Of a stretch of DNA of 64,000 nt, positions 14,971 through 21,011 are shown in pieces. Below the pieces are notes generated by a model that made no database searches, was not told the DNA's origin, and worked only from the letters and a program-made list of their open reading frames with translations. The DNA is from an uncultured Schlesneria sp. Its GTDB lineage: Bacteria > Planctomycetota > Planctomycetia > Planctomycetales > Planctomycetaceae. A program made the translations under genes and the position numbers. Every line of letters begins with the position of its first letter. Position 1 is the stretch's first letter. The stretch spans positions 1-64,000 of the forward strand of contig CAIMFH010000109.1 in assembly GCA_903840265.1 (NCBI GenBank), read 5' to 3'.

Positions 14971-14995
14971 TTTTGAGTAATCAAAACTTTGTTTT
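14971..14995. promoter_or_regulatory. Tandem dyads upstream of the metal ABC operon (candidate DtxR/MntR operator)
   Basis: TTTTGA-gtaa-TCAAAA at 14971-14986 is a perfect inverted repeat, overlapped by AAAAC-ttt-GTTTT at 14983-14995. The AT-rich block lies about 42-66 bases before the start of the metal-binding protein gene, where a repressor of the operon would bind. Both downstream permeases carry DtxR-like domains, so autoregulation is plausible. No binding consensus is known for this organism. Confidence 0.4.
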
Positions 14996-15036: not shown

Positions 15037-16065
15037 ATGAGATCTCGGAACCGTATTTCTTGCTGGCTGATGGTCTGCGCCATTGCCGTCCATTTTGGAT
15101 CAGGTTGCAGTCCAACGCCGCCATCAACACAGTCGGCGACTTCCATAGCGTCGTCACCAAAAGAGATCAAAATCGTCACCACGACCGGGATGGTGACCGA
15201 CATCGTGCGGCATGTCGCCGGTTCGCGAGCGACGGTCTCGGCACTGATTGAATCGGGCGTCGACCCCCATCTGTTCAAGCCGACTCGTGGTCACATTAAG
15301 CAGCTCCAGGATGCCGATGTCGTCTTCTTTTCAGGGCTGACTCTGGAAGGGCGGATGGTCGAAACGTTTACGCAACTGAAGCGATCCGGCAAACCCGTCT
15401 ACGCCGTGACCGAGTCGCTCGATAAAGAATACTTGCGATCGCCGCCCGACTTCGCGGGCCACTACGATCCCCATGTCTGGATGGATGTTGCGGCCTGGAG
15501 CCAATGCGTCGATCATGTCGCACAGTCGCTCGCCAAGTTCGATCCGCCCCATGCCGAGGAATACAGCGCTAATGCGAAGGCGTATCGAGAAGAGCTGACT
15601 AAGTTGGATGATTACGTTCGCAAGTCGATCAAATCAATTCCGGAGAAGCAGCGAGTTCTGGTGACAGCTCACGATGCCTTCGAGTATTTCTCGCGAGCGT
15701 ATAAGATTGACGTGAAATCGGTGCAGGGTGTGACGACCGAATCGGAAGCGGGTGTGCTGGATGTCAATCGGCTGGTCGACTTCCTGGTCGAGCGCAAGCT
15801 GCCAGCCATCTTCATCGAATCCAGCGTGAATGCAAAGAACATCGAAGCGGTGATGGAAGGGACGAAGTCGCGCGACGTGGTGGTTCGCATTGGGGGAGAA
15901 TTGTACTCCGACGCCATGGGGGCTGAAGGAACCTATGAAGGAACTTACATCGGAATGATCGATCACAATGCCACGGTGATTGCGGCATCGTTGGGTGGTA
16001 GCGTTCCGGAAAAAGGGATGACCGGAAAGCTCGCCACCGCGATCAAAGGTGGTGAAGCCAAATGA
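15037..16065 (+). CDS. Metal ABC transporter substrate-binding lipoprotein (TroA/MntC/ZnuA family)
   Basis: This is the extracytoplasmic metal receptor of a Mn/Zn/Fe-type ABC importer. A lipoprotein signal ends at FGSGC, with Cys24 as the lipidation site. The expected four ligands are visible: His in [10 protein letters not shown], His in YDPHVWMD, Glu in FIESSVN and Asp in MIDHNAT. There is no long His-rich loop of the kind seen in many zinc-specific ZnuA proteins, which favours manganese or iron, though this is inference. The 342 residues are normal for the family. It is the first gene of the operon and overlaps the ATPase gene by four bases (ATGA). Confidence 0.92.
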
Positions 16066-16829
16066 GCAACCACCTGGATTCGTCGCCCCTGTCTATTCAC
16101 GACATGACTGTTGCCTATCAGCGCCGACCCGTGCTGTGGGACATCGATTATTCGGCTCCGTCGGGCAAGCTGATCGCCATCGTCGGACCGAATGGTGCCG
16201 GCAAGAGCACCCTCATCAAAGCCGTGCTGCAACTCATTCCAGCAGCATCCGGCGATGTTGTCTTTTTTGGCAAGCCCTACCGCGAGCAGGCTGGCCGAAT
16301 CGGCTACGTCCCTCAGCGAACCAGTGTCGATTGGGACTTCCCGATTGATGCTCTCGGTGTTGTCGCCATGGGCCTTTATCGCAAGATTGGCTGGTTTCGC
16401 CCCGTGACTAAGAAGTACCGACTGCAGGCCCTGGCCGCATTGGAGCGAGTCGGCCTGGCGGAATTCGCATCACGACAGATCAGCCAACTCTCCGGTGGGC
16501 AACAACAACGGGTCTTCCTGGCACGAGCCCTAGTCCAAGATGCCGATTTATATCTAATGGACGAACCGTTCGCAGGGGTCGATGCGGCGACTGAACGTGC
16601 GATTGTCGATCTGTTGCGAGAGCTCCGCGCCGCCGGCAAAACGGCCCTGGTGGTCCATCACGATCTGCAAACGGTCGCCGAATACTTCGACGAAGTCCTG
16701 CTGCTCAACATGCGACTCATTGCCAGTGGCCCTGTGGAACAGGTCTTTACGACCGAGAACTTGCGGCGGACCTACGGGGGCAAGCTCGCGTTGCTCGATC
16801 AAGTGGGATACCGGATGAGTCACAAATGA
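16062..16829 (+). CDS. Metal ABC transporter ATP-binding protein
   Basis: The 255-residue ATPase powers the metal importer. It contains Walker A (GPNGAGKST), Q-loop ([13 protein letters not shown]), the signature [15 protein letters not shown], Walker B (LYLMDEPF) and the switch histidine in LVVHHDLQ. The phrase [12 protein letters not shown] is typical of the MntB/TroB/ZnuC branch. Its start overlaps the stop of the substrate-binding protein gene, indicating translational coupling. The permease gene follows. Confidence 0.95.
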
Positions 16830-16892
16830 ATCTGATCCCGCAGTCCTTTGCATCTGCCTGAAACGAATCTCCCTGCTGCTTGCTCGTTGCCC

Positions 16893-18248
16893 ATGCTCAA
16901 TAGCGACATCTTTCGAGTCCTGACCCTGCAAGACTACAACACGCGAGTCGTGTTGTGCGGGACGATGCTGTTTGGTGCGTGTGGCGGGATCGTCGGCGCG
17001 TTTATGCTGCTTCGCAAGAAGTCGCTCGTTAGTGATGTGGCCAGTCACGCGGCGTTGCCCGGGATTGGGCTGGCCTATCTCATTCTCGAGGCACTTTCGC
17101 CGGGAACCGGCAAATCGCCAGTCTGGTTGCTGGTGGGGGCCGCGATCGGTTCGGCCAGCGGTTTGTTTTGCGCTGGGCTAATCCAGCGTACGCGTTTGAT
17201 CAAAGAAGACGCGGCCCTCGGAATTATTCTAAGTGTCTTTTTTGGTTTCGGCATTGTTCTGCTGAGCGTCGTGCAAAGTCTGCCAACAGGCAGCGCGGCG
17301 GGTCTAACTGAGTTTATCTTCGGCAAGGCGGCAGCACTCACGGCGGCAGATGTGACGACGATCGGCGTTGCGAGCGTGATCATCATGCTCGCGTGTGGCC
17401 TGCTGTTCAAAGAGCTCTCGTTGCTATGCTTCGACGATGCCTACGCGGCGGCACTCGGGTGGCCGACCTGGTGGCTGGACTTGCTGCTGACAACGCTGGT
17501 CGTCGCGGTCACCGTGATTGGAATGCCTAGTGTCGGCTTGCTGCTGGTTGTCGCTCAACTGGTCATCCCTCCGACCGCGGCGCGGTTCTGGACAGACCGC
17601 CATAGCGTGCTCACGATCATTGCCGGAGTGCTCGGCAGCCTGAGCAGTGCCGTCGGGATCCTGGTCAGCGCTGTCATTCCGCGGTTGGCGGCAGGAGCTG
17701 TCATCGTGCTGGCCGGAACGACGATCTTTTTAATCAGCATGCTGCTGGGAACGCGACGGGGCATCCTGTGGAATTGGCTGAGTCAGCGAGAATCGCATCG
17801 GCGTATCGGACAACTCGATCTGTTGCGAGCCTGCTTCGAAGTCTTGGAGCGCGAACACAGTTCCACGAGTGGCCTGGAAGGCGATCCGGGGACGATGCCG
17901 TTGACGTTCGAGCAATTGCAGGCGGCTCGATCTTGGACCGCTGCGCGATTGCGAAGCATCCTTTCTGTCGCTACCAGCGATGGCTCGATCCGTCAGGGCG
18001 CTGATGCCCAATATCGTCTGACGAGCGAAGGGATGCGATTGGCCCGCCGCGCCACGCGCAACCATCGCTTGTGGGAAATGTATTTGATTCACTTTGCTCA
18101 AACAGCTCCCAGTCGCGTCGACAGGGAGGCTGATGAGATTGAACATGTGCTGGCACCGGAATTAGTCGAACAGTTGGAAGAGTTGCTGGAACAGGATCGA
18201 GTGCGAACTCGCCTGCCGCCGGTGAGCCCGCACGCGCAACTGACGTAG
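16893..18248 (+). CDS. Metal ABC transporter permease fused to DtxR/MntR-like regulator domain (first)
   Basis: Residues 1 to about 290 form an ABC-3 type permease with roughly eight hydrophobic helices; GGIVGAFMLLRKKSLVSDVASHAALPGIGLAY is the family's opening. The remaining ~160 residues are soluble and read like a metalloregulator of the DtxR family: a helix LDLLRACFEVLE, a winged-helix-like part (LTFEQLQAARSWTAARLRSIL ... YRLTSEGMRLA), then RNHRLWEMYLIHF and ADEIEHVLAPELVEQLEELL, matching the metal-binding/dimerisation helices (HR-x2-E and EH pairs). The ATG at 16893 was chosen; a TTG at 16848 adds a non-conserved leader. The fusion recalls chlamydial YtgCR. Whether the domain binds DNA or is cleaved off is unknown. 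Confidence 0.88.
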   Translation: MLNSDIFRVLTLQDYNTRVVLCGTMLFGACGGIVGAFMLLRKKSLVSDVASHAALPGIGLAYLILEALSPGTGKSPVWLLVGAAIGSASGLFCAGLIQRTRLIKEDAALGIILSVFFGFGIVLLSVVQSLPTGSAAGLTEFIFGKAAALTAADVTTIGVASVIIMLACGLLFKELSLLCFDDAYAAALGWPTWWLDLLLTTLVVAVTVIGMPSVGLLLVVAQLVIPPTAARFWTDRHSVLTIIAGVLGSLSSAVGILVSAVIPRLAAGAVIVLAGTTIFLISMLLGTRRGILWNWLSQRESHRRIGQLDLLRACFEVLEREHSSTSGLEGDPGTMPLTFEQLQAARSWTAARLRSILSVATSDGSIRQGADAQYRLTSEGMRLARRATRNHRLWEMYLIHFAQTAPSRVDREADEIEHVLAPELVEQLEELLEQDRVRTRLPPVSPHAQLT

Positions 18249-18292
18249 AACTTCGTAGGAAACAACCGCTTTTTAATTCGCAAATCCATCGT

Positions 18293-19735
18293 ATGTTTAC
18301 CGAGTTTTTCAAACGCCTTTCCGTCTGGGAAGGGATCGACACCTGGATCGCCGTGACCGGCGCACTTGCCGCCATGGCGTGCGCGCTGCCCGGCACATGG
18401 TTGCTATTACGCCGACAAAGTCTGCTCGGCGATGCGCTCAGTCATGCGGTTCTGCCGGGAATTGTCCTGGCGTATCTCGGTGTGTCGTGGATGGAAGAAA
18501 TCGGTTGGCTGGCAGCTCCTGCCACGGGCAGCGGTGCCGCGCGTGTGGCTGAGGGGATGTCGCTGGTCGCTCGCCGTCAACTTGCCCTGTTCGCCGGAGC
18601 GGCGCTGTCGGGCGTGTTCGCAGCGGTGTTGTCGGAGGTGATCCAGCGATGGGGACGCGTCGAGCGGAGTGCGGCCCTGGGGGTCGTGTTTACATCCATG
18701 TTTGCCTTAGGCCTGCTATTGATTCGTCTGTTCGCCGATCGGGCGCATTTGGATCCCGGGTGCGTTCTGTATGGCAACCTGGAAGCAACCGCGTTCAATC
18801 GACTGGGCGATACAACGATCCCTCAAGCCGTCATCGTGAATGGAGGCATGCTGCTGGTGAACGCCTTGCTGACGTTGCTGTTCTTCAAAGAACTGCGACT
18901 CAGCACATTCGATCCAGACCTCGCCGCCGCTCAAGGGATGCGGCCGAGTTTGATCTCCGTCGCGCTCATGTCAGTGACTGCGGCGACGGTTGTTGCCGCT
19001 TTTGAATCTGTCGGTGCGATTCTGGTGATCGCCATGCTGATCATTCCCGCAGCCACAGCACGACTTCTTAGCGATCGGCTGTCGACAATCCTGTTCTTGG
19101 GGATTGTCGTGGCGGCGGTCGGTTCCGTGCTGGGACACGTCATGGCGATCACACTTCCAGCGATGATCTGTTCACGGTTGGGGATGCCTCAAGTTGAGGA
19201 TGCGAGTACGGCTGGCATGATGACTGTCGCGGCCTGCGGTTGTTTCCTATTGGCCGTCTTTTTGAGTCCACGGCATGGAATGGCACGAGCCTGGTACGAG
19301 CGATGGCGATTGAAACTGCGGATCGTTCGTGAAGATTTGCTGGGCGGCCTGTTTCGACGCGAGGAAGCAGCCAGTTCGCAACCGCACGCAGCCAATCGGC
19401 AGGCGACAGTCGGTGATCCGGTGCGCCTCAGTTGGTTTCAACGCCTAGGTCGACAAAGCCTGATCCGGCAGGGGCTGATCGATTCCGGATCTCACGGCGA
19501 TTCCCTCACGGAGTCTGGGACGGCCGCCGCGCAGGATCTTGTTCGATCGCACCGATTGTGGGAGTCGTATATGGCTCGTCACTTTGCTCTTCCTGACGCT
19601 CGCCTGCACGACACGGCCGAAAAAGTCGAACACTTTCTGGGACCAGAGCTTCAGGCGGAAATCGCGGCCGAACTCGATCAGCCCACGATGGACCCTCACG
19701 GAAAAGTAATCCCGACGCCGCCTGAGCGACTGTAG
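18293..19735 (+). CDS. Metal ABC transporter permease fused to DtxR/MntR-like regulator domain (second)
   Basis: This is a second ABC-3 permease (LPGTWLLLRRQSLLGDALSHAVLPGIVLAY at the start, eight or nine helices to about residue 330). It also carries a C-terminal soluble tail of about 140 residues. The tail shows RSHRLWESYMARHF, then HDTAEKVEHFLGPELQAEI, then DPHGKVIP. The last block matches the typical end of DtxR/MntR metal domains (C/DPHG-x-PIP). The wing-helix part before it (LSWFQRLGRQSLIRQGLIDS ... LTESGTAAA) is shorter and more degenerate than in the first permease, so DNA binding is less certain. The AEKVEH segment keeps the E-x2-EH spacing of MntR. The gene follows the first permease by 44 bases. 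Confidence 0.88.
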   Translation: MFTEFFKRLSVWEGIDTWIAVTGALAAMACALPGTWLLLRRQSLLGDALSHAVLPGIVLAYLGVSWMEEIGWLAAPATGSGAARVAEGMSLVARRQLALFAGAALSGVFAAVLSEVIQRWGRVERSAALGVVFTSMFALGLLLIRLFADRAHLDPGCVLYGNLEATAFNRLGDTTIPQAVIVNGGMLLVNALLTLLFFKELRLSTFDPDLAAAQGMRPSLISVALMSVTAATVVAAFESVGAILVIAMLIIPAATARLLSDRLSTILFLGIVVAAVGSVLGHVMAITLPAMICSRLGMPQVEDASTAGMMTVAACGCFLLAVFLSPRHGMARAWYERWRLKLRIVREDLLGGLFRREEAASSQPHAANRQATVGDPVRLSWFQRLGRQSLIRQGLIDSGSHGDSLTESGTAAAQDLVRSHRLWESYMARHFALPDARLHDTAEKVEHFLGPELQAEIAAELDQPTMDPHGKVIPTPPERL

Positions 19736-19867: not shown

Positions 19868-21011
19868 ATGGCCATCCCGCTGAGACCATGTTGTCAGTTG
19901 TTGCTGGTCGCCTTTGTGTTTGGGGGCTTGGCAACGGCACCCTGCGATGCCGAAGTCGATTGGCATCCCCAGCGAACGCGCGTCTTCGCCGTGGGGGTGC
20001 TTGAGTGGCAGCACCCCGATCTGGCCTGGAATGGCCTCGGCTCAGCATCAGCGGCGTGACGCTCAACTGGTTCAGCATTTTAAATCTGCTGGTGTCGCGG
20101 ACGATAGCATCACCTATCTGCAAGATCGCCAGGCGACAAGAAGCCATATTCAGAAGGAACTGCTCAATCAACTCGCGAAGACCAAACCGGGCGAGTTGCT
20201 GGTCTTCTATTTTACGGGCCACGGCTTTCGCGACCACAAGAATCACAGCGTCCACTTCGCGAACTACGATGCCGCAGATGGTGATACAGCCTGGCCGGTC
20301 ACTGCCATCTTGGACACGCTGGAAGCCAACTTCCATGGGAGTCACGTCCTGCTGATGGCGGACTGCTGCTATTCGGGCGGGCTGGTCGATGCGGCTCGGG
20401 CGCGCAAATCGCGACTGAACTATGCGTGTCTCTGCTCGTCGCATTCGCATAACTCGTCAACCGGGCAATGGACTTTCAGCGATGCATTGCTCGCTGGCCT
20501 GCGGGGAAGCCCGAAAGTCGATCTGAACGCCGATGGTGAGATCGATGTCGGCGAAGTGGGCCAGTATTCGGAACTGGAGATGGCTTTCGTCGAAAGACAA
20601 AAGTCCGTCTACGACACCGCCCCCGAATTCTCGCCACGCTGGCGGCTGTCAAATCCAACTCAGCGAAAGGCACCCCGACAGGGCGAACGCATCGAAGTGA
20701 AATGGAAAGAGAAGTGGTATCGAGGGGAAATCCTGGTGACGTCGGGCAACCAGTGCAAAGTCCACTACATCGGCTTTGAAGATTCGTGGGACGAGTGGGT
20801 CGGCCCCGAACGAATGCGAGCGTTCCAGCCGACGCATCTGGACCAGGGGACCGCAATCGAAGTCTTCTACCATAAAGATCAAAAGTGGTATCCGGCTCGA
20901 GTTGTCCGCAGTTGGTACGGACTGACCTTCGTTCACTATGACGGCTTCCCCAACGAATGGAATGACTGGGTCAGCCCGGAATTGATTCGCATGCCGGGGC
21001 AAAAGAAGTAG
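19868..21011 (+). CDS. Exported caspase-like (C14) protein with two Tudor-knot-like domains; frameshifted
   Basis: A signal peptide and the first caspase strand (MAIPLRPCCQLLLVAFVFGG then RTRVFAVGVLEWQHPDL) are read from the ATG at 19868, but this frame stops at 20059. The rest, RRDAQLVQHFKSAGVADDSI onwards, is in the +1 frame and ends at 21011. The switch lies around 20020-20050. The catalytic pair is intact: His in FYFTGHGFRD and Cys in MADCCYSGG. After the caspase come two repeats of about 50 residues, GERIEVKWKEKWYRGEI...DSWDEWV and GTAIEVFYHKDQKWYPARV...NEWNDWV, resembling Tudor-knot/chromo-like barrels. Without the shift the protein would have about 380 residues. Pseudogene, sequencing error and programmed frameshift all remain possible. 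Confidence 0.7.

Follow-up and report, generated by a model that had tools for sequence, protein, structure and literature searches.

DtxR-type modules on both permeases of a planctomycete metal importer as possible allosteric metal sensors

Introduction

The genes at 15037-19735 of a 64,000-nucleotide stretch of DNA from an uncultured Schlesneria sp. (the window; family Planctomycetaceae) raise the question of what a module of a metal-dependent repressor does at the end of a membrane permease. Single permease-repressor fusions are already known; passages of PMC5599777 credit Thompson et al. 2012 with reporting them from 11 phyla. The C-terminal part of one of them, YtgCR (CT069) of Chlamydia, is described in sections of PMC5599777, PMC7755916 and PMC6504234 as being cut off and acting as a repressor. 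In the planctomycete operon both permeases are fused and, judged from their sequences, the tails seem not to be repressors. An earlier note on this DNA had suggested that the importer could sense cytoplasmic metal directly and either gate transport or release a repressor, and that two different fused regulators would allow heterodimeric control.

Both permeases end in a DtxR-type module on a stalk of fixed length

The metal-importer operon comprises four genes, all on the forward strand. The first encodes a periplasmic metal-binding protein of the ZnuA family (15037..16065; PF01297, 258.6 bits) and the second an ABC ATPase (16062..16829; PF00005, 100.3 bits). These are followed by two ABC-3 permeases with DtxR-type tails, viz., PermA (16893..18248; PF00950, 178.2 bits; PF02742, 53.3 bits), which has 451 residues counted from the ATG at 16893 and an alternative TTG start at 16848, and PermB (18293..19735; PF00950, 150.6 bits; PF02742, 69.5 bits), which has 480. 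The matches to PF01297, PF00005 and, twice, PF00950 all exceed the Pfam cut-off and together make up the gene set of an ABC-3-type metal importer.

Past the last hydrophobic core, PermA continues for 166 residues and PermB for 156, with no further membrane segments in a Kyte-Doolittle profile. The motifs read there by the earlier note are present: HRLWE in both tails, ADEIEH in PermA, and AEKVEH and DPHGKVIP in PermB. A Pfam search finds PF02742 (Fe_dep_repr_C; cut-off 27 bits) above cut-off at the C-terminus of both proteins and, together with conservation, delimits a metal and dimerisation domain at 18021..18194 (PermA) and 19508..19717 (PermB) of the forward strand; the winged helix PF01325 has no Pfam match in either tail at E-values up to 1. 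The predicted structures of both tails nonetheless contain a winged helix and a metal/dimerisation domain, the winged helix being complete in the PermA model, whereas in that of PermB its first HTH helix is reduced or absent. Foldseek searches with the predicted tails lead to DtxR/MntR-family repressors. Both tails belong to the DtxR/MntR type, in agreement with the assignment made in the earlier note. The best match of the PermB tail, in structure as well as sequence, is DR2539, a Mn/Fe-dependent DtxR-family repressor of Deinococcus according to portions of PMC3327659 and the entries PDB 8pvt, 8pvz and 8pw0. The two have in common the lack of Glu11 and the retention of the His98 position, but DR2539 is soluble and binds DNA, whereas the PermB tail is anchored to the membrane and is without the reading head.

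Each tail is joined to the last membrane helix through a stalk that the models show as a helix. The stalk and helix 1 measure 36 residues in 36/36 aligned relatives of PermA (17745..17852, forward strand) and 34 residues in 34/34 relatives of PermB (19268..19369, forward strand), with zero indels between the membrane helix and the tail in either set. The stretch that follows is variable, with 41 to 83 residues in PermA and 37 to 52 in PermB.

The tails seem to keep the metal site and to lose the DNA-reading part

Candidate metal ligands in the PermA tail (451-residue numbering) are H391, E395, D410, D414, E417, H418 and H447, the last of which sits just beyond the domain stretch given above. 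Those of PermB are H420, E424, H439, E443, E446, H447, D467 and H469, in addition to D348 in helix 1. A search of the open-licence literature for the ligand numbering of ScaR/SloR found nothing. The alignments of family tails hold 33 of the 36 PermA sequences (L063, L102 and L104 omitted) and 33 of the 34 PermB sequences (L063 omitted), and the tail-less PermB proteins of L103 and L104 do not enter the tail statistics. All six metal-site positions are conserved in 62 of these 66 tails (PermA 32/33, PermB 30/33); the PermB of L182 (G133) ends at the border of its sequence piece, which makes its absent ligands uninformative. The Glu99 position is occupied by Glu in just 17/33 PermB tails, and the Glu11 position by Arg or Gly/Ala. 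In the wider phylum, surveyed over 32 additional loci from 32 genomes with 47 fused tails scored, five metal-site positions are conserved in 41 tails. The PermA metal site is absent in G177, G264 and G255, so that not every tail need sense metal.

The recognition helix gives the opposite picture. Its triad is found in 0/66 family tails against 30/30 standalone planctomycete DtxR proteins, and in 1/47 fused tails of the wider phylum (G171) against 10/10 standalone regulators; a YtgR-like fused tail with an intact HTH was sought there and no clear case emerged. Mean information over the recognition helix falls from 2.97 bits in standalone proteins to 1.96 in PermA and 1.65 in PermB, whereas over the metal region the corresponding values are 3.38, 3.33 and 3.06 bits. 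The residues of the wing are degenerate in the tails as well. Judged from these patterns, the DtxR-type module seems to have kept its metal-binding residues and lost its DNA-reading part, and the tails would therefore probably report cytosolic metal to the pump itself. Where the reading head would be, PermA carries an R-S-W...R motif, which might serve for any sort of contact.

Operator type goes with the class of standalone regulator

An operator-like inverted repeat, TTTTGA-N4-TCAAAA (type I), lies at 14971..14986 and precedes the start of the binding-protein reading frame by 50 bases. The 7.49 Mb genome contains the exact repeat 3 times and its backwards control 0 times, and it encodes a canonical standalone DtxR. 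Of 33 operon loci, 28 carry a repeat scoring at least 10/12 (18 of type I and 10 of type II), as against 0/7 loci of lone PermB genes. The five loci without an operator (G320, G321, G331, G335 and G342) are pieces with no binding-protein gene ahead of PermA or contigs that start inside the operon. For G321, a type I site ahead of a binding-protein gene on another contig accompanies a long regulator, outside the table described below.

Tabulated against the class of the standalone regulator, which was set by the best PF01325 matches and by length with weaker matches left unclassed, operator type gives 15:0:0:8, a correspondence that depends on 2-3 independent events. The table omits G048 (type II) and G327 (type I), each of which carries both regulator classes, G087 and G313, which lie outside the regulator search, and G317, in which that search gives no PF01325 match and the operator is of type II. 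It reads 15:0:0:7 without G332, which was counted as short only and has a second, DtxR-like frame of 253 residues beside its short regulator. Of the 23 operator calls, 5 (G152, G266, G306, G340 and G334) reach just 10/12, a score that the other operator pattern attains by chance in 2/10 type II genomes, and removing them leaves 11:0:0:7. A paired test of operator against regulator, with G048 and G327 coded as short, draws on 2 pairs and is powerless (p 0.5). No usable MntR box resembling the type II operator was found in the open-licence literature, including sections of PMC9806134.

Mapped on the permease tree, operator type switches 3 times if the best tree is taken and at least 2 times if well-supported branches are counted, with both tails retained. 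These 2-3 swaps of operator and regulator with unchanged tails amount to a natural experiment that separates transcriptional control from the tails. Within the recognition helix of the regulators, 7/14 positions separate the two classes. Among the HTH columns of the tails in which both groups have residues, none tells the operator types apart in PermA or PermB. Covariation of the tail HTH with operator type was rejected accordingly: PermA offers 0 separating columns and PermB 1, a column with a gap in each of the 10 type II rows. The operator thus appears to track the standalone regulator and not the tails, which disfavours a tail as the repressor of the operon, as does the decay of the recognition helix. 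The heterodimeric control envisaged in the earlier note is likewise not supported at the DNA level, given the degenerate recognition helix and wing, the canonical standalone DtxR and the operator that goes with it. At 10/32 tail loci, and at L104, a standalone regulator lies a few kb from the transporter genes.

A possible sensor on the membrane subunits and its alternatives

The computation supports the fusion, the fold, the conservation of ligand positions, the loss of recognition helix and wing, the fixed stalk, and an operator that follows the standalone regulator; metal binding, the metal bound, tail pairing and the direction of the effect are what we infer beyond these. The importer would be of Mn type, or Mn/Fe type. 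Weighing against this, the best NCBIfam models of the binding protein fall below their own cut-offs, are mixed in metal and are headed by a zinc model; the open-licence literature on DUF1559 with manganese gave nothing usable. A standalone DtxR/MntR repressor would control transcription at the inverted repeat, and each permease would pass from its last membrane helix, by way of the helical stalk of constant length, to helix 1 of the DtxR-type module. High cytosolic metal might bind between helix 1 and the metal domain of one or both tails and shift the stalk, probably inhibiting the transporter rather than activating it, and the tails of PermA and PermB may pair physically on it. That the importer is under such two-level control, with the repressor acting on transcription and the tails as a sensor at the protein level, seems to us evenly balanced. 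Besides the supporting results listed above, the tails retained on widely separated permeases in G024 and G105 speak for it. Counting against it are the loss of tails or of the metal site in some genomes, the variable Glu99 position of PermB, the R-S-W...R motif of PermA, the lone PermB genes without an operator, and the few events, the 10/12 operator calls and the exceptions G332 and G317 behind the match of operator and regulator. The fuller claim falls a little short of that, and we put it forward tentatively: a DtxR-family repressor module became a paired allosteric sensor on both permeases in many planctomycete families, exerting trans-inhibition through the membrane subunits atop separate standalone DtxR/MntR transcriptional control.

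The tails might instead buffer or pass on imported metal, or aid the assembly or stability of the transporter, without any gating. The conserved ligand positions and the invariant stalk length speak for this, as do the genomes in which one tail is without a metal site; by argument, a rigid stalk and a complete DtxR-type module are unneeded for a buffer, and we regard this explanation as unlikely, with perhaps one chance in four or five.

A fusion of the YtgCR kind, in which cleaved or tethered tails repress the operon once metal-bound, is improbable. It has in its favour an architecture the same as that of YtgCR, whose released C-terminal part represses according to the passages cited above, and the complete winged helix of the PermA model. 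It is opposed by the absence of the recognition triad from all family tails, by an operator that tracks the standalone regulator across its switches, by a stalk that is helical and fixed in length, and by the existence here of a canonical standalone DtxR, unlike in Chlamydia, for which a section of PMC6504234 states that no iron-dependent regulator other than YtgR has been identified. Of the two outcomes offered in the earlier note, direct sensing by the transporter is still the best reading, and release of a repressor is what the degenerate recognition helix and wing and the standalone DtxR speak against. Most doubtful is a membrane decoy, in which the tails would use their dimerisation domain to capture the standalone regulator and, depending on metal or on the state of transport, keep it off DNA. 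A retained dimerisation domain with a lost reading head has the layout of a dominant-negative partner, and a regulator gene is close by at the loci counted above, but the class of the partner has changed 2-3 times, long DtxR giving way to short MntR, with the tails unchanged.

Comparison with known systems

The likeness to YtgCR drawn in the earlier note is apt: in both, a metal importer operon has an ABC-3-type permease that carries a DtxR-like domain at its C-terminus (in the planctomycete, PF02742 in both tails). YtgCR, taken here from its published description, differs in that the planctomycete operon has both permeases fused, a degenerate recognition helix, and a standalone DtxR/MntR that the operator follows; YtgR is cleaved and represses, whereas the sequences of the planctomycete tails speak against a released repressor. 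In operons of the troABCDR type, known from Treponema as an ABC metal importer under a separate DtxR-type regulator (as outlined in part of PMC2628430), the regulator is solely a separate gene, whereas the planctomycete has DtxR modules on both permeases besides its standalone regulator.

For the sensor proposed here, the nearer analogy would be the trans-inhibition of the ABC importers MetNI and ModABC (described in sections of PMC10710835). In each case the importer carries a fused cytoplasmic domain, which would exert feedback on transport after binding the imported substrate. The domains of MetNI and ModABC are of other folds and sit on the ATPases, and their inhibition is known from structures and biochemistry, whereas the planctomycete tails sit on the permeases and would inhibit by analogy. 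Among the best matches in the open-licence literature, which are no proof of absence, we recognised no prior report of paired fusions or of transporter gating by a DtxR-type domain. If the proposal is true, metalloregulator domains are reusable as protein-level sensors inside transporters, and permease-DtxR fusions should therefore not be taken for repressors by default. Mn/Fe uptake would then gain rapid feedback as a further layer, and the operon would provide a testable ABC importer inhibited through its permeases.

Distribution and loss of the paired tails

Relatives of PermB aligned to residue 474 or beyond occur in 55/61 genomes of the family, among the matches listed, and relatives of PermA aligned to residue 450 or beyond in at least 48/61. 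The tail architecture is not a product of chance, because it recurs across these genomes. The survey of other planctomycetes suggested in the earlier note finds the paired fusion in at least 31/294 sampled genomes of the phylum. A contig search with PermA gave 2 loci, both planctomycete. Among the 15 matches listed for a plasmid collection, which span mainly the membrane domain, the fusion is absent, and one of them is a permease joined to a separate regulator gene.

The tails have also been lost. PermB is without its tail in G304 and G313, PermA in G326 (judged from its 300-residue frame), and both permeases lack theirs in G311 as well as in the second operon of G334. In the one-contig genomes G024 and G105, megabases separate the sole two ABC-3 permeases, and each of the two keeps its tail.

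Two DtxR/MntR-type tails in one importer operon

Four genes make up the metal importer operon at 15037-19735: one for a binding protein of the ZnuA type, one for an ABC ATPase, and two for the ABC-3 permeases PermA (16893-18248, + strand) and PermB (18293-19735, + strand). The surrounding genome (G000, contig C109) is that of a planctomycete, the nearest named relative being a MAG named Schlesneria sp., with 97% identity in PermA. The last hydropathy segment ends 166 (PermA) and 156 (PermB) residues ahead of the C terminus, where each permease has a PF02742 domain above the cut-off; the coordinates, the sequence motifs and the two tailed permeases described in the earlier note are right. Its assignment of these tails to the DtxR/MntR type is borne out by structure prediction. 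AlphaFold2 models, each built from an input alignment of 33 sequences (mean pLDDT 86.1 for PermA and 87.5 for PermB), have in both tails a winged helix, a helical metal domain and a long helix made up of the stalk, which follows the last membrane helix, and helix 1. On the way from helix 1 to the wing, the PermB model has a single helix of at least 4 residues; in the loop preceding it, pLDDT drops to 57. Foldseek searches against the PDB found the DtxR-family repressor DR2539 as the top match of the PermB tail (E 6e-8) and DtxR, IdeR, ScaR and SloR as those of the PermA tail (E about 1e-4), with moderate query-normalised TM-scores among the matches listed (0.51-0.68 and 0.45-0.54, respectively). 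Sequence-only PDB searches lead to the same family, with 8pvt (8.5e-15) and ScaR (3.4e-7) as the best matches of PermB and PermA, respectively. The downstream frame at 19914-21011 (+) matches Tudor-knot above its cut-off and the caspase-like Peptidase_C14 slightly under its cut-off.

Among 294 genomes sampled from the phylum, 161 match PF02742, and the paired fusion, which the earlier note proposed to look for in other planctomycetes, occurs with its two tails side by side in at least 31 of the 294, from at least 11 family-level groups. All 12 paired loci read from outside the window's family have two adjoining tailed permease frames. The one-contig genomes G024 and G105 have just two ABC-3 permeases, each with a tail, and their genes are megabases apart. 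An ABC-3 search of 18 family genomes gave exactly two matches in 15, a weak third in G152 and G257, and four in G334, two of them tail-less. Variants with one tail or no tail also occur. In G064 (L180 1512-2738) and G058 (L181 124-1233), the tail of a PermB relative stops after the winged helix, without a metal domain, and adjoins a PermA with a full tail.

A retained metal site and a degenerate DNA-reading head

The metal ligands of MntR are given as Asp8, Glu11, His77, Glu99, Glu102 and His103 in PMC6860424, and for DR2539 PMC3327659 describes Lys in place of Glu11 and a need for His98. In a joint alignment of 30 standalone regulators, 33 PermA and 33 PermB, conservation reaches 32/33 or 33/33 in each kind of tail at the positions of His77, Glu102 and His103 and at the HRLWE Glu. 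The His98 position is His in 32/33 PermB and Asp in 33/33 PermA; that of Glu99 is Asp in 33/33 PermA and, in PermB, Glu in only 17/33, with His in 8 and Ser in 4. Asp8 is matched by Asp in 32/33 PermB and 22/33 PermA (His in 10 PermA). At the Glu11 position PermA has Arg and PermB Gly/Ala, and the standalone regulators of this set likewise depart from Glu, having Lys. Near the C terminus, a His is conserved both in the DPHG of PermB (30/33) and in the SPH of PermA (32/33); in ScaR and SloR this residue contributes to a second site. In L190 (G177), L191 (G255) and L192 (G264), part of the metal site is missing in the PermA tail and present in the adjacent PermB.

The standalone regulators conserve a recognition helix of the SPGTVTSMLK type and a wing of the Y.PY.GV type, and neither is retained in the PermA or PermB tails of the joint alignment. 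The information content of the recognition helix averages 2.97 bits in standalone regulators (phylum-wide set), 1.96 in PermA and 1.65 in PermB; that of the metal region averages 3.38, 3.33 and 3.06 bits, respectively. The [TS][VA][TS] triad of this helix is found in 30/30 and 10/10 standalone regulators, 0/66 family tails and 1/47 fused tails of other loci, with the alignment uncertain in so degenerate a stretch. PermA conserves an R-S-W...R motif in its place, which is perhaps a protein contact.

The operator and its probable reader

Upstream of the operon's first gene is a 6-4-6 inverted repeat (14971-14986 in the window) of two types, scoring at least 10/12 in 28 of 33 loci: type I, TTTTGA-N4-TCAAAA, is that of the window, and type II, TGTAGC-N4-GCTACA, is found in relatives. 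The regulators of these relatives are long DtxR-type (frames of 225-277 aa) or short MntR-type (145-213 aa). Both a called operator and a single regulator class are available for 23 genomes; of these, 15 pair type I with a long and 8 type II with a short regulator, without mismatch (Fisher 2e-6, kinship not corrected for). The pattern is unbroken without the 5 operators that score only 10/12, and without G332, which has a second DtxR-like frame besides its short regulator. The permease tree (tails excluded) requires three operator switches, at least two of them on well-supported branches; they fall to a clade with 8 type II rows, to G336 and to G024, and both tails are retained across them. 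An independent-pairs test goes in the same direction, with two pairs only and no power. Seven of 14 positions of the regulator recognition helix separate the long from the short class, and none of the tail HTH columns with residues in both operator groups separates the operator types. Taken together, the matching of operator and regulator, the persistence of the tails through the switches and the separation seen in the regulator helix and in no tail HTH column suggest, on evolutionary grounds, that the operator is most likely read by the standalone regulator and not by the tail.

Single permease-DtxR fusions are already known, those in 11 phyla being credited to Thompson et al. in a review (PMC5599777). 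We found no earlier account in the open-licence literature searched of a paired fusion, of tails with a metal site and no DNA-reading head, or of operator and regulator swaps.

Other operator sites

The operator also lies upstream of DUF1559 (PF07596) pseudopilin-like genes (L105, L108, L109, L150, L152, L154, L156, L157, L160 and L162). An exact type I search of 13 genomes gave 21 sites. The transporter accounts for 11 of these, including one in G321 that a divergent DUF1559 gene shares; 7 of the 10 others are at a DUF1559 gene. In G048 and G069, which are congeneric, type II pairs precede a DUF1559 gene. Despite the abundance of DUF1559 (98 matches in G000), the DUF1559 gene looks like a second member of the operator's regulon. 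A small lipoprotein-like frame comes next after it in G000 and G294. Exact operators without a nearby transporter or DUF1559 gene (L107, G000:C140:14058; L155, G152; L185, G321:C82; L110, G257:C13) are probably chance matches or other targets. A type II site in G332 (L112/L146, C1 about 5170196-5170433) adjoins a 253-aa DtxR-like open frame, possibly reflecting autoregulation. Seven pieces (L085, L087, L089, L091, L093, L095 and L097) carry PermB without binding protein, ATPase or PermA, and no operator was found at this gene in 7/7.

Possible function of the tails and the metal

The stalk and helix 1 together span 36 residues in 36/36 PermA and 34 in 34/34 PermB, and the stretch that follows is variable in length, at 41-83 and 37-52 residues, respectively. 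A fixed helical arm would link the last membrane helix to the helix 1 half of the metal site, an arrangement that fits an allosteric device. In the trans-inhibition of MetNI and ModABC, as described in PMC10710835, the imported substrate binds to fused domains that keep the ATPases apart or block cycling; the text does not mention 'dtxr'. Given this precedent and the fixed stalk, we favour metal trans-inhibition through the permeases as the role that the tails may play, by analogy. The best NCBIfam model for the importer's binding protein is a zinc one, under its cut-off. The short MntR-type regulators carry the complete MntR ligand set, which would speak for manganese in the genomes that have them.
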